A stretch of DNA of 64,000 nt, taken from contig JADFYH010000004.1 in the NCBI GenBank assembly GCA_015233135.1, forward strand, positions 1 through 64,000, in the 5' to 3' direction. Every line of letters starts with the position of its first letter. Position 1 is the stretch's first letter. Of this stretch, positions 5,592-63,613 are shown in pieces. The notes under the pieces were generated by a model. The model searched no databases, was not told the origin of the DNA, and worked only from the letters and a program-made list of their open reading frames with translations. The position numbers were made by a program, and so were the translations under genes. This stretch comes from Deltaproteobacteria bacterium (GTDB lineage Bacteria > UBA10199 > JADFYH01).

Positions 5592-5629
5592 CCCCTCTCC
5601 CCTTGAGGGAGAGGGTTAGGGTGAGGGGA
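5592..5629. repeat. CCCTCTCCC-family palindrome (half element)
   Basis: CCCCTCTCCCCTTGAGGGAG followed by AGGGTTAGGGTGAGGGG. It is one palindrome plus the G-rich tail that forms half of the full doublets seen elsewhere. It lies between the convergent ends of htpX and the M16 protease gene and may help terminate both. Confidence 0.8.
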
Positions 5630-23759: not shown

Positions 23760-23843
23760 TCTCTTGAATTCCGGAAAACAAACAAGCGTTTTGTTTTCGG
23801 ACGAAGAAAAAAGTTACTTCATAGATAACTTGAAGAGTTGACC

Positions 23844-23880
23844 CCACTCACTAACCCTCTCCCTCAAGGGGAGAGGGGAG
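23844..23880. repeat. CCCTCTCCC-family palindrome (half element)
   Basis: CCCCACTCACTAACCCTCTCCCTCAAGGGGAGAGGGGAG, read as a tail plus one palindrome, in the gap between the divergent apaH and comM genes. It matches the half element at 5592-5629 in inverted orientation. Confidence 0.75.
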
Positions 23881-27701: not shown

Positions 27702-27799
27702 CCCCTCTCCCCTTGAGGGAGAGGGTCAGGGTGAGGGGTACCTCGAGTGCACTCAGGATCACCCTCTCTCTGACTCTCTCCCCTCAAGGGAGAGAGGAC
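27702..27799. repeat. CCCTCTCCC-family REPIN-like doublet
   Basis: A full 98-bp element. A left palindrome (CCCCTCTCCCCTTGAGGGAG...), the tail GGGTCAGGGTGAGGGGTAC, centre CTCGAGTGCACTCAGG, then the inverted counterpart ending CTCTCCCCTCAAGGGAGAG. It lies between the orphan gene's promoter and the end of aroE. Confidence 0.88.
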
Positions 27800-41238: not shown

Positions 41239-43914
41239 CTATTCTTCTTCATCACGGGTCAAAAATCGACGAAGCCCCGCTCTCATTCTTTCGAAAATGC
41301 CTGGACGTGGCGGTGTTTGAGGGCTTTCTAATTCAAATCTCCGAATAAGCTCAGCTTCAATTCGATCAGCATCTTTTCTTAAAACTATAGTCCCATTGGG
41401 CAACAGACGATATCTTTCGGCAAATCTTTGAGCCGCTTCTTGAGCAGGGGCATAGGGGTCAGGATTGTTTTCAACAACTGAAGTTCTACGATCTTCTACA
41501 GGTTCAGCGTCTTTCGAAGGGATTTCCTCCAAACGCTTTTCTAAAATTCCAAAGGCTGCATTTTTTACTTCAACAACCCAGCCCCGCCAAATTGCGTCAC
41601 TACCCTTCAGTACAATAGAATGATCCTCCATTTCCTGCAGTAACGCCTTGAATTCAGCTACCTGTTCCACACAAACATCACATTCTTGAGCTAATCGAAT
41701 ATTTCGAACCACGTTAAGGATAAAAGTTTCTTTCGCTTGTGGACTAACTCGAAGACCCCGTATCGTTCCAAGAAAACGATCGAAATTATAAAGCGACATT
41801 TTTTGAGCCAAAAATTCCAAATAATAAATTGAATCTTCCCGTCTCGTTGTTCGATTTTTTTCATTGAAGAATTCTTCGCGATCGTAATTAAAAACCAACA
41901 TCTCTAAAAGCGTTGGCAATTGATTCATGAACAAAGGGTTTTCTAATATTTTTGCAAGTTCGCTCTCATCAAAGCGAAAACCAGGTATAAATAAAACCCC
42001 TTGAAAGGCCGATAAAAAATCTCCTTTTACTCCTTCTAACGAAGCGCTCAACCGCTCTATCAATAAATTTCTTGCTCTCCTGTTTTCTGGAATAAAGGGT
42101 GACAAAATTATCAATTCATCAGAGTCAGCGCCCAGTGCTGTATATCCAGGCCGAAATCCAAGTTTGGTCTCGTAACCCAAAAGGGCTAGCAAAGGGATGA
42201 GAGGCAGATAACCATAAACTCCATCTTTTTGAACCCTCTCTTCAATTCGCGAACAAATTCTTTCGGCTTGCTCTGCATTAATTCTTTTTTCTCTCAAAAG
42301 AAGCTCAATCACTTTTTGATAAAAAGTTGCTACCGATTCACTAGTCCATAATTCTTCAATCGAATGTTCAACAATCGCATTCCATTGATCCGGTCTGAGT
42401 CGAGATAAATCGAGAGATGGAGAACCTTCAGAAAAGGCAGTTTCATGGTCGCATGAAACCTGGCAGGAAAAAAGATAGCACCACAGCCGTTTAAGCATCT
42501 TCGGATGTTCCAAATCCAAAGTTTCAGCAGGGAAAGTGCTCAATAGCCTTCGAGCTTCTTGGGTAGATTCAGGACGATCAACAAAATCAGAGGTAATAAA
42601 TTCCAAGGCCTCAAACAAACCCGATTCAAATGTAAGTTTGCAACCCCTAAAGAGTGGGTTTTTGTATATTGCCTCACTCAAACTTATTCTCTGTGCTGTT
42701 AATCTTGGAAGGTCTGACAATTCCAGGGTAAAAGAATATAATAATCTTCGAAAAATTTCCGGGCTTTCTCTGAGACGACTTAAAGCCCTGGCCGTTGCCT
42801 GAAATGCTGCTTCCTGCACCGCTGGTGGACCCAGTACTGATGTTTCTCTCTCAAGAGCTTCCACAATGAAATCCGGAAAAATCTCCGCTTCATCCCAACC
42901 CGGCAAACTCAAGGGCAGCACTCTTTTTGTAAATCCCAGGGCCCTTTCGTCTGCATCCTCACTTGCGATGGCCCTCTCCGTCACCTCCAAAAAAACTTCT
43001 CGAGAGACGGAGGCAAGATCCAAGCTCTCTATCCCTGAAGGATAAGTTTTCCTTTCAGTAGGCGCTCGCATCACCGCTCCAGGTCCCATTCCTACAAAGC
43101 AGCCCAGACTGCTCCACAAGGTCGCCCGCCCCACTTGGCGGGCAAAACGCAACAAATGCCGGGCACTCACTTGTATGCCCACTTGGGCGATTTGATTACC
43201 ATGGTGCACCCCCGCGTCCATGACGGTGTTGTGGAGGTATTCCCTCAGGAGATCTGCAATTTGCCCCTCTCCCTGAGCCTCCCGCGCACGGGGGGAGGGA
43301 ACTCTTTCCCCTCTCCCTCGAGGGGAGAGGGTCAGGGAGAGGGTGGTCTCGGATTCACTCGGATTCCACCCCACCCTTCTCTCAAACCCCTGCTGCAAAT
43401 GACTGGCCGCCGTAAACACCGCACCGCCAAACAGGCGCTGCAGCACATAGCGCAAAGTAGTACTTTGTATAGAATTGTTAAAAAAGGGAAAGGCCAACCA
43501 ATTCATGAAATGAGACGAGTTAAAATTGATTAAACCTGCTGTGTTTCCTCTAAGGCTCCAATGCCCGCCCAGGGCTTCGCAGAGCCCAGCGGCCAGAAAG
43601 GTGTTGGTCATATGTGCCGCAAAGCGAATGAAACCCTCCCGGCGAAGGGCCATGCTGGCCACTTGGGAAAAGCTCAACCGCTCAAACACCCGAAGGCCAC
43701 AAGTGCGAAGGATTTTGCGTTCCACCGCACCGCCTATCAAACCACCCGCAAAGCCAGTACCTATCGTAAAGGCAATACTCCTCAGCATCTCGGGCGTACA
43801 CACTTCATCCTTCACCTGCCGCCAAAACTCAGGGCGAGAGCAGGTGTCAACCAGGGCTTCGTAGGTCTGGTAAAAAGAATGATGAAATTGGGATAAGCTG
43901 CGATCTATCGACAT
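41239..43914 (-). CDS. Large protein of unknown function with an in-frame repeat insertion, orphan group member 3
   Basis: An 891-residue protein of no recognised family. The first 270 residues have several hydrophobic segments (SIAFTIGTGFAGGLIGGAVE, ANTFLAAGL-type stretches, RYVLQRLFGGAVFTAASH) suggesting membrane association. Residues about 190-218 (TLSLTLSPRGRGERVPSPRA and on) are encoded by a palindromic repeat element inserted in frame. From about 290 to 890 the protein is a long, soluble, helix-rich region resembling a tandem helical-repeat array, with two cysteine pairs (CYLFSCQVSC, CDVCVEQ). It ends in a charged tail (FERMRAGLRRFLTRDEEE). The -10 of its promoter-like signal lies 7 bp before the ATG. 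The mix of membrane head and helical-repeat body suggests a scaffold, but nothing direct shows a function. Confidence 0.65.
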   Translation of the reverse strand: MSIDRSLSQFHHSFYQTYEALVDTCSRPEFWRQVKDEVCTPEMLRSIAFTIGTGFAGGLIGGAVERKILRTCGLRVFERLSFSQVASMALRREGFIRFAAHMTNTFLAAGLCEALGGHWSLRGNTAGLINFNSSHFMNWLAFPFFNNSIQSTTLRYVLQRLFGGAVFTAASHLQQGFERRVGWNPSESETTLSLTLSPRGRGERVPSPRAREAQGEGQIADLLREYLHNTVMDAGVHHGNQIAQVGIQVSARHLLRFARQVGRATLWSSLGCFVGMGPGAVMRAPTERKTYPSGIESLDLASVSREVFLEVTERAIASEDADERALGFTKRVLPLSLPGWDEAEIFPDFIVEALERETSVLGPPAVQEAAFQATARALSRLRESPEIFRRLLYSFTLELSDLPRLTAQRISLSEAIYKNPLFRGCKLTFESGLFEALEFITSDFVDRPESTQEARRLLSTFPAETLDLEHPKMLKRLWCYLFSCQVSCDHETAFSEGSPSLDLSRLRPDQWNAIVEHSIEELWTSESVATFYQKVIELLLREKRINAEQAERICSRIEERVQKDGVYGYLPLIPLLALLGYETKLGFRPGYTALGADSDELIILSPFIPENRRARNLLIERLSASLEGVKGDFLSAFQGVLFIPGFRFDESELAKILENPLFMNQLPTLLEMLVFNYDREEFFNEKNRTTRREDSIYYLEFLAQKMSLYNFDRFLGTIRGLRVSPQAKETFILNVVRNIRLAQECDVCVEQVAEFKALLQEMEDHSIVLKGSDAIWRGWVVEVKNAAFGILEKRLEEIPSKDAEPVEDRRTSVVENNPDPYAPAQEAAQRFAERYRLLPNGTIVLRKDADRIEAELIRRFELESPQTPPRPGIFERMRAGLRRFLTRDEEE
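43265..43343. repeat. CCCTCTCCC-family element inside a coding sequence
   Basis: Outer arms CCCTCTCCCTGA and TCAGGGAGAGGG enclose two inner hairpins (TCCCGCGCACGGGGGGA and CCCTCTCCCTCGAGGGGAGA...). All of it is read in frame by the host gene, adding about 26-29 residues rich in Arg, Ser, Pro and Glu without a stop. Confidence 0.88.
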
Positions 43915-45066: not shown

Positions 45067-45150
45067 CCCTCTCCCTCGACGGGAGAGGGTGATATTGGTG
45101 GAATCAAATATCACCCCCTCCTTAACCCTCCCTCCTCAAGGTGGAGGGGA
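45067..45150. repeat. CCCTCTCCC-family REPIN-like doublet
   Basis: CCCTCTCCCTCGACGGGAGA and AGGGTGATATTGGTGGAATC, then the inverted part AATATCACCCCCTCCTTAAC to CCTCAAGGTGGAGGGG. Inverted arms GTGATATT/AATATCAC flank the centre. It occupies the gap between the siroheme gene and hemX. Confidence 0.85.
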
Positions 45151-45184
45151 TTTCTAATCCAAGTGGAGTGGTTGAAAAATACTT

Positions 45185-52893: not shown

Positions 52894-52988
52894 CCCCTCT
52901 CCCTTGAGGGGAGAGGGTTAGGGAGAGGGTGACCCTAAGTGCACTTGAGATCACCCTCCCCTTGATCCCCTCCCCTCGAGGGAGGGGA
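52894..52988. repeat. CCCTCTCCC-family REPIN-like doublet
   Basis: CCCCTCTCCCTTGAGGGGAG then AGGGTTAGGGAGAGGGTGA, centre CCCTAAGTGCACTTGAGA, then TCACCCTCCCCTTGATCCCC and TCCCCTCGAGGGAGGGG. It lies in the 327-bp region between the divergent RDD and ATPase genes. The rest of that region holds only the ATPase promoter and operator. Confidence 0.88.
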
Positions 52989-53055
52989 AAACCACGTGAT
53001 TACAATATTTTTTGAAAAATTCCCAGCCCCCCTGCTCGAGTGGTTTTGCCCCCTG

Positions 53056-61523: not shown

Positions 61524-62894
61524 ATGACCATCATCACCTTCTTATATTTTCTTGTCGGTTTGGGGCTTCTCATTTTTATCCACGAACTTGGGCATTTTCT
61601 CGTTGCCAAATGGGCGGGAATTCGTGTGGAGCAATTTTCGCTGGGTTTTGGCCCCAAGCTTTTTGGCTTTAAGAGGGGAGAGACCGAATACAAAATTTCC
61701 ATACTTCCGTTGGGTGGCTATGTAAAGATGTCGGGCGAAGAGCCAGAAGAGGAAAAAATAAAACCCCTGGATGACCCTCGCAGCTTTGCAGCACAGCCTT
61801 TATGGAAACGGGTGTTGGTAGTGTTGGCAGGTCCTACCATGAATTTGTTTTTGGCTTTGCTGCTGATGCCTTTGGTTTTTATGGTTGGGCATCAGGAACC
61901 TTCTTACTTGCATCAAGAAAGTGTGCTGATAGGGGTCAAAAAGGATTCCCCCGCTGACAAAATTGGAATGATGAAAGGAGATAAGATTATTGAGATAGAA
62001 GGCAAGCCCATCCAGCATTGGCTGGAGGTGATGAAAACTGTGAAGAAGAATCCCAATGGAAGTCTTGAGTTAAAAGTTTTACGTGGAAGTGAAATAAAAT
62101 CTTTCCAAGTAAAACTGGATGCTGACAAAGATAATCTGGTTGGGATTTTTGGTATTGAGCCCCCTTTGTTTATAGTTTTCCCCCCCATTATTGCTGAGGT
62201 GGCTCCCAATTCGCCAGCACTTCGTGCAGGTCTAGAGGCCAACGATAGAATTCTCTCTGTCAATGGAACTCCGATTAATTCTTGGGATGAAATGAGTGAT
62301 TTGCTCACGGCTTCGCAAGGGAAAAATACGCAGCTAGAGGTATTGAGAAATGCAGAGAAGAAAAATCTGGCAATTGCTCCTACCTACGATTCGGATAATA
62401 AAAAATGGATTTTAGGGGTGGTTAAAAAAATCCCTGAAGGAAGCTATATCCAAGTGAAATATAGTTTCGCGGAGGCCCTAGAAAATGGAATAGAAGAGTA
62501 TAATGGATTGCTGGGGCTTACCTTTAAAGTTCTAAAGAAATTATTTAGTTTTAAGCTTTCTTACAGGGCCTTGGGAGGGCCCGTTCAAATTGCTCAAGCG
62601 ACGGCTCAAGCTGCCAAAAGTGGCTTCGGAGATTTCCTCTATTTTATTTCCTATCTAAGTATCCAGTTAGGGGTGATGAATTTACTCCCTATCCCTGTGC
62701 TCGATGGAGGGCATTTGTTTTTTATGCTCTTTGAAGTGGCCCGCGGGAAAGCCCTTTCTATCAAAACAAGGATGATCGCCATGCAGGTGGGAATGGCTCT
62801 GCTTTTTTCGTTGATGATCCTGGTGACCATCAACGATTTGAGCAATTTGCAGGTTGTGCATAAATTGATCAATTTTGTGGTGGGGAAGTTTTAA
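61524..62894 (+). CDS. rseP: RseP-type site-2 zinc metalloprotease (M50)
   Basis: A 456-residue intramembrane protease that cleaves anti-sigma factors or signal peptide remnants. The first helix has the zinc motif HELGH (20-24). FSLGFGPKLFGFKRGETEY is the family loop. Two PDZ domains lie in the periplasm (VKKDSPADKIGMMKGDKI and VAPNSPALRAGLEANDRI). The C-terminal helix motif NLLPIPVLDGGH contains the third zinc ligand Asp. The ATG at 61524 is chosen because the upstream frame runs through a repeat. No clear ribosome binding site is seen. Confidence 0.93.
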   Translation: MTIITFLYFLVGLGLLIFIHELGHFLVAKWAGIRVEQFSLGFGPKLFGFKRGETEYKISILPLGGYVKMSGEEPEEEKIKPLDDPRSFAAQPLWKRVLVVLAGPTMNLFLALLLMPLVFMVGHQEPSYLHQESVLIGVKKDSPADKIGMMKGDKIIEIEGKPIQHWLEVMKTVKKNPNGSLELKVLRGSEIKSFQVKLDADKDNLVGIFGIEPPLFIVFPPIIAEVAPNSPALRAGLEANDRILSVNGTPINSWDEMSDLLTASQGKNTQLEVLRNAEKKNLAIAPTYDSDNKKWILGVVKKIPEGSYIQVKYSFAEALENGIEEYNGLLGLTFKVLKKLFSFKLSYRALGGPVQIAQATAQAAKSGFGDFLYFISYLSIQLGVMNLLPIPVLDGGHLFFMLFEVARGKALSIKTRMIAMQVGMALLFSLMILVTINDLSNLQVVHKLINFVVGKF

Positions 62895-62908
62895 AGCGAG
62901 AGTTAATT

Positions 62909-63613
62909 ATGTACATTCTCGCCCTAGACACCACCAGCTCTCAAGGGGGGGTTGTCTTATTAAAAGACAATGAAGTTTTGGAAGCCAACTCCTGGCAGGC
63001 TTTTTCCAATCACAGTGCTGCCCTGGCCTTTAACACGCACCAAATTTTAGAAAAATTTAAACTGAAGGTAAATGACTTGGACGCGATTGGGGTTTGCACA
63101 GGGCCGGGCTCCTACACGGGCATTCGTGTGGTGCTCAGCTTTGTGAAAGGCTTGGCTGCACTGAGCTCTATTCCCATCGTCCGGCTTTCCAGCCTGGATT
63201 TACTGGCTTATCAAAATCGAGACTTGAGCCCTTTGGCCGTTTGTTTAGATGCCCGAAATGCTGAAGTCTACGCAAAGTTTTTTGAGAAAAATTTTCAGCT
63301 CACTCAAAAAGATATTCAGGAATCTTGCCTCTCTTTTAAAGATTTTTTTGTGGCCCTTGAATCAAAGATCTCTCTCTCGGAAGTTTTTTGGCTGGGTTCA
63401 GGGGCGATAGCCAATGCCTATTTTTTGAGAGAGCAGGGGGTACAAGAAAACAAAATTCTTCCTTTGGAAAAATCTCAATTAGACATTTTGTCTTTGGCGC
63501 AGCTGAGTTTTGAGTGTTACCAGCAAAAACTTTTTCTGGGTTCGGTGCTGGAGTTGCAGGGCAATTATTTGAGGGATTTTCGAGTGAGGGACAAGGGTAA
63601 TACCTCACCCTAG
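62909..63613 (+). CDS. tsaB: tRNA threonylcarbamoyladenosine biosynthesis protein TsaB
   Basis: A 234-residue ASKHA-fold protein needed with TsaD and TsaE for the t6A modification of tRNAs reading ANN codons. The opening ILALDTTSSQGGVVL and GVCTGPGSYTGIRVVLSF are diagnostic. The last four residues and the stop codon come from the inverted repeat that begins at the end of the gene, so the original C-terminus may have been replaced. It follows rseP by 14 bp. Confidence 0.93.
   Translation: MYILALDTTSSQGGVVLLKDNEVLEANSWQAFSNHSAALAFNTHQILEKFKLKVNDLDAIGVCTGPGSYTGIRVVLSFVKGLAALSSIPIVRLSSLDLLAYQNRDLSPLAVCLDARNAEVYAKFFEKNFQLTQKDIQESCLSFKDFFVALESKISLSEVFWLGSGAIANAYFLREQGVQENKILPLEKSQLDILSLAQLSFECYQQKLFLGSVLELQGNYLRDFRVRDKGNTSP

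Follow-up and report, generated by a model that had tools for sequence, protein, structure and literature searches.

In-frame copies of a short palindromic repeat in an 891-residue reading frame and in many other genes of a deltaproteobacterial genome

The window analysed here is a stretch of 64,000 nucleotides from contig JADFYH010000004.1 of a Deltaproteobacteria bacterium, and one of its genes, encoding a putative protein of 891 residues, is traversed by a palindromic element of 79 bp (Table 1). The canonical unit of this element reads CCCTCTCCCTGACCCTCTCCCCTCGAGGGAGAGGG on the minus strand and is a perfect 35-nt match to a repeat family found throughout the genome, while the second unit is degenerate; the two arms are 74% complementary. 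The sequence-only reading had claimed that the element is read through without a stop near residues 190-218; this is confirmed, with the in-frame reading TLSLTLSPRGRGERVPSPRAREAQGEG covering residues 191-217/218. RNA folding of the element gave z-scores of -4.3 (minus strand) and -4.0 (plus strand) relative to shuffled sequence. In the window CCCTCTCCCT occurs 9 times, against 0.22 expected from shuffles, and Table 1 includes five intergenic copies for comparison.

Table 1. Positions of the element, its host reading frame and comparison copies in the window
Feature	Position	Strand	Remark
891-aa ORF with in-frame repeat	41239..43914	-	flanks of the repeat both coding-like
Coding region upstream of the insert, residues 34-175	43388..43813	-	homologous to residues 73-216 of paralogue L029
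Two-unit inverted palindromic element (REPIN-like dimer)	43265..43343	-	residues 191-218
Canonical 35-nt repeat unit	43309..43343	-	reads TLSLTLSPRGRG
9-nt spacer separating the two units of the dimer	43300..43308		
Degenerate inverted 35-nt unit	43265..43299	+	minus-strand reading PSPRAREAQGEG
Intergenic single repeat copy (comparison)	5593..5627	-	
Intergenic single repeat copy (comparison)	23843..23877	+	
Intergenic 94-nt dimer (comparison)	27703..27796		member of a nearly identical genome set
Intergenic copy (comparison)	45067..45160		hairpin part, then degenerate second unit
Intergenic copy (comparison)	52895..52990		with a second, degenerate arm

The 891-aa protein matched no Pfam family, and no orthologue was found in 40 relatives of its class or in a scan of GTDB species. 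Two paralogues are present in the genome, L029 (632 aa) and L192 (472 aa). Upstream of the repeat, L029 aligns to the window protein with a local score of 116, compared with a shuffled maximum of 55, and L192 is linked to the window protein through L029. In the three-way alignment each paralogue has a gap of 25 residues within the repeat segment and another of 4 residues directly ahead of the segment. Downstream of the repeat the window protein aligns to its paralogues only weakly (score 35, below the shuffled maximum), and for this reason the insertion in the window gene itself, judged from divergent paralogues, is regarded as probable. The start codon assigned to the window ORF is a prediction; the homology of its upstream part with a paralogue shows that the gene does not simply begin after the repeat, one of two circumstances named beforehand as undoing the claim. 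AlphaFold applied to the N-terminal part of the window protein together with the two paralogues returned a pLDDT of 35 and was uninformative. Alternatively, the segment could be an ancestral linker of low complexity, similar to the repeat through chance or convergence, as its degenerate second unit and the absence of orthologues from the genomes searched would allow. The perfect match of the canonical unit, the full-length dimers elsewhere that match the element over 80+ nt at 78-84% identity, and the paralogues that are without the segment make this origin extremely improbable.

A strict palindrome pattern gave 77 matches per strand in the 2.6-Mb genome and 0 for a reversed control. The repeat was surveyed in 98 stretches (378 kb) fetched around listed sites, so that the resulting counts are lower bounds. 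These stretches contain 153 repeat sites, which simple ORF and codon scoring placed inside ORFs (46), between genes (92) or across gene ends (15); the coding density of the stretches is 0.90, yet 92 of the 153 sites are intergenic. After two of the 46 genic sites had been discounted as low-complexity look-alikes, at least 44 in-frame copies in at least 34 ORFs remained. Repeat units are 34-37 nt long and occur as inverted dimers or, in many cases, singly. Alignment of 178-190 units yielded the consensus TCA-CCCTC[A/T]CCCTRRCCCTCTCCC(C)TCRAGGGAGAGGG-GA. More than a dozen loci (window 27703-27796, L063, L075, L076, L085, L105, L116-L121, L133, L151) share a 94-nt dimer that is nearly identical in all of them and has extended flanks (CACTAGAAATAC ... 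CACTCAGGATCA). This dimer was never seen in a gene and is probably the youngest, recently mobile subfamily. In L138:1741-2076 a long ORF contains a repeat-containing unit of ~150 nt in tandem, which is a repeat-derived protein segment amplified in tandem.

The sequence-only reading had also asked how many other proteins carry in-frame copies and in which frames. The roughly 44 copies in 34 ORFs use all six, with counts of 15, 4 and 7 for the antisense frames and 7, 13 and 12 for the sense frames. With small variants, such as CAA in place of TAA in one frame, each of the six is free of stops. Because the element is short and readable in this manner in any of the six frames, its genic copies can add residues to proteins. 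The peptides differ among the six frames, with Pro, Gly, Ser, Leu, Glu and Arg as prevalent residues. At unit position 10, C is present in 18 of 46 genic units and in 8 of 95 other units; enrichment of such stop-free variants was set aside as proof of selection, as genic copies had been chosen for being open.

Known protein families were matched by 28 of the 31 host ORFs scanned. The hosts include rng, sat, mutY, queA, pdxA, uvrA (two copies), mutL, uvrC, aceE, ddl, nagZ, macB, bioF/kbl (two), ubiB, folC, manC, leuS (two), metH (three), aguB and comEC, along with a Thy1 protein, an acyltransferase, an alpha-2-macroglobulin, a SNF2 helicase, a DUF488 protein, a TIGR00275 flavoprotein, a HATPase protein and a radical SAM/DUF2344 protein. 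Some of them, leucyl-tRNA synthetase (LeuRS) for one, are essential enzymes. The repeat segment is absent from homologues at 11 sites in 8 proteins, where homology continues in the same frame on either side. Relative to solved homologues, the additional residues at the repeats number +31 and +35 in LeuS, about +30 and +38 in UvrA, +37 and +29 in MetH, +36 in BioF, +26 in NagZ, +33 in AguB, and about +13 each in Ddl and Sat. Comparison with orthologues had been proposed for the original case; wherever orthologues exist, the repeat-encoded segment is missing from them, and nowhere did they all share it with conserved residues, in support of the original interpretation.

It could be argued that chance alone keeps some of these frames open through a repeat that marks a gene boundary or sits in a decaying gene, the true protein ending before the repeat or starting after it. 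Several repeats do overlap gene ends, the window ORF has a putative start codon, and queA, folC, manC and pdxA are without a clear extra segment, the first three showing no clear net insertion at the repeat. Against this stand the same-frame homology that flanks the 11 sites, the conserved upstream part of the window ORF, and leuS, of which only one gene was seen in the genome and that one bears two inserts; chance-open frames are therefore a very improbable account. In the surveyed sites no gene interrupted by a repeat was found, five suspect adjacent pairs having been tested. Same-strand ORFs abut the repeat at nine other sites, and all five pairs tested proved to be two different complete genes. 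The absence of interrupted genes fits a purging of frame-breaking insertions, though broken genes are harder to spot than open ones.

Several host loci show further peculiarities. In pdxA (L070:1637-2572) about 50 family residues are seemingly missing at the repeat, as if the insertion came together with a deletion. In L159:1394-2875 a repeat dimer lies just ahead of the DUF488 domain and has possibly joined two formerly separate reading frames. The mutY-like ORF (L065:698-2365; C1 near 62651-63455) contains a second kind of repeat, composed of TCTCAC[AG]-type tandem units and their reverse complement, which is seemingly in frame in MutY (e.g. SHLSRLTS, SRETKDVRRKTKEVRRET) and enlarges the protein. 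This second repeat has 15 matches in the genome, mostly in the mutY-like ORF and in C1:93957-96095.

Leucyl-tRNA synthetase permits the closest view of the inserts. All 29 aligned LeuS orthologues of the same class lack both of them: at the first site they have a median of 9 residues compared with 31 here, and at the second site 28 orthologues have 1 residue and one has 4, compared with 36 here. An AlphaFold model of LeuRS, built with the same-class LeuS alignment as input, has a mean pLDDT of 84.5 and a TM-score of about 0.85 to E. coli LeuRS, and its confidence falls below 50 only at residues 1-13, 381-414 and 574-604. The latter two segments are the inserts and represent the sole internal regions of low confidence, so that the model predicts an intact LeuRS with the repeat segments as disordered loops. 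The earlier suggestion that the insert is perhaps a tolerated linker fits this model. The second LeuS insert (L139:1170-1260) consists of a purine-rich stretch (GGGGKEEGRGKREEEHERSGSN) and a truncated repeat unit, ahead of the conserved VDQYIGGIEHAVLHL motif, and is a case of two kinds of insertion side by side.

Inserts of this kind might instead be selected functional segments, such as linkers, interaction motifs or hairpins that tune expression in the mRNA, rather than tolerated debris. Such a role could be suspected from the many hosts, among which LeuS, UvrA, MetH and BioF have two or three copies, and from the strong folding of the element as RNA. However, the use of all six frames gives different peptides in different hosts, the hosts are unrelated enzymes, and the LeuS inserts, besides their predicted disorder, are confined to this genome within the class. 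A general functional role is accordingly given a small probability.

We consider it highly probable that the repeat is a REP/REPIN-like non-autonomous element whose frame-keeping genic copies are tolerated as disordered loops. A high-copy palindromic element, present as single units of ~35 nt and as inverted dimers of ~70-104 nt, would have spread by transposition into intergenic and genic sites through a putative enzyme. A genic insertion with a net length that is a multiple of three would add 12-38 residues rich in Pro, Gly, Ser, Glu and Arg, and the host proteins, which as read from their ORFs are predicted to contain the inserts when translated, may tolerate the addition as a disordered loop without putting it to use. 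Frame-breaking insertions would be purged, so that only in-frame, loop-compatible genic copies survive. One Y1_Tnp gene was found in the genome, which is a draft assembly, and no repeat copy lies within 1.5 kb of it; a RAYT acting as a repeat-flanked mobiliser was rejected on this ground. No target-site duplication of the kind seen in MITEs was apparent, matching k-mers in the flanks of the repeat being without notable excess over shuffled partners.

The repeat is also found outside this genome. A few copies occur in 23 of 45 other genomes of the class, and exact copies are present in genomes of Chloroflexota, Proteobacteria, Gastranaerophilales and Atribacterota, where most ORFs through the repeat look spurious. 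In a Dehalococcoidia MAG (L167:6971-7999), and so in another phylum, a transporter-like ORF that looks like MFS and looks real reads through the repeat in frame as HPHPNPLPSRERG, with the insert probably lying in a loop. A broader proposal would treat the repeat as a REP superfamily without GTAG/CGTC tags, spread over several phyla and suited to coding sequence, that in this lineage serves as a general source of disordered loops, some of them functional; this we hold to be rather unlikely.

With this repeat, the few selfish palindromes that have become protein are joined by an independent, cross-phylum family. Its approximately 44 natural insertions, many of them in enzymes of known structure, provide a test set for insertion tolerance and for the ways in which mobile DNA can give rise to new stretches of protein. 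They also carry a warning for annotators, as segments of the 'SPRGRG/PSPLRGEG' type in predicted proteins are repeat DNA and not domains.

Several known systems resemble the repeat in part. Its GC-rich hairpin is reminiscent of whalefall-1 RNA (RF01762), but this candidate was rejected, as the covariance-model similarity is weak and every match is below the gathering score. Rickettsia palindromic elements (Ogata et al. 2000/2002) are, according to PMC10969869, ~150 bp long and encode a conserved peptide, with 44 integrations reported in R. conorii. The Rickettsia elements and the present repeat are alike in that a single genome has palindromes within the reading frames of many unrelated genes, and in similar number; in contrast, the present units measure 35 nt (about 70-104 nt in dimers), have the GC-rich CCCTCTCCC sequence, are read in six frames without a conserved peptide, and belong to a different lineage with a genome of 2.6 Mb. 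The resemblance to Rickettsia that had been noted at the outset, with an unrelated repeat family, is thus one of function and not of family membership. PARCEL repeats are likewise palindromic repeat DNA translated within proteins, described in PMC2996958 as an amphipathic coding repeat that spreads horizontally.

The closest likenesses are with REPs and REPINs. A high-copy palindrome of 20-40 nt, mainly intergenic and present singly or as inverted dimers, is a REP in the general sense, and the repeat has all of these properties. GTAG/CGTC REPs are hairpins of about 20-40 nt, single or in inverted dimers and mostly intergenic; some are in frame in genes, uvrA has double inserts in other bacteria, and the dimers encode 20-30 residues (Di Nocera et al. 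2013, PMC3733652). The repeat shares with them the short hairpins, the single and inverted-dimer forms, the mainly intergenic location, the in-frame genic copies and even the double hit in uvrA, but has neither tag at the hairpin end, the flanks of 178 units being TCA before and GA after. REPINs are composed of two inverted REP units and a short spacer that form one dispersed element (Bertels and Rainey 2011, PMC3116915), an arrangement also seen here; unlike in the REPIN/RAYT system, a repeat-flanked RAYT gene was not found and many units are single. Palindromic repeats in frame within genes are a known but uncommon phenomenon, and the repeat of the window is one more case.
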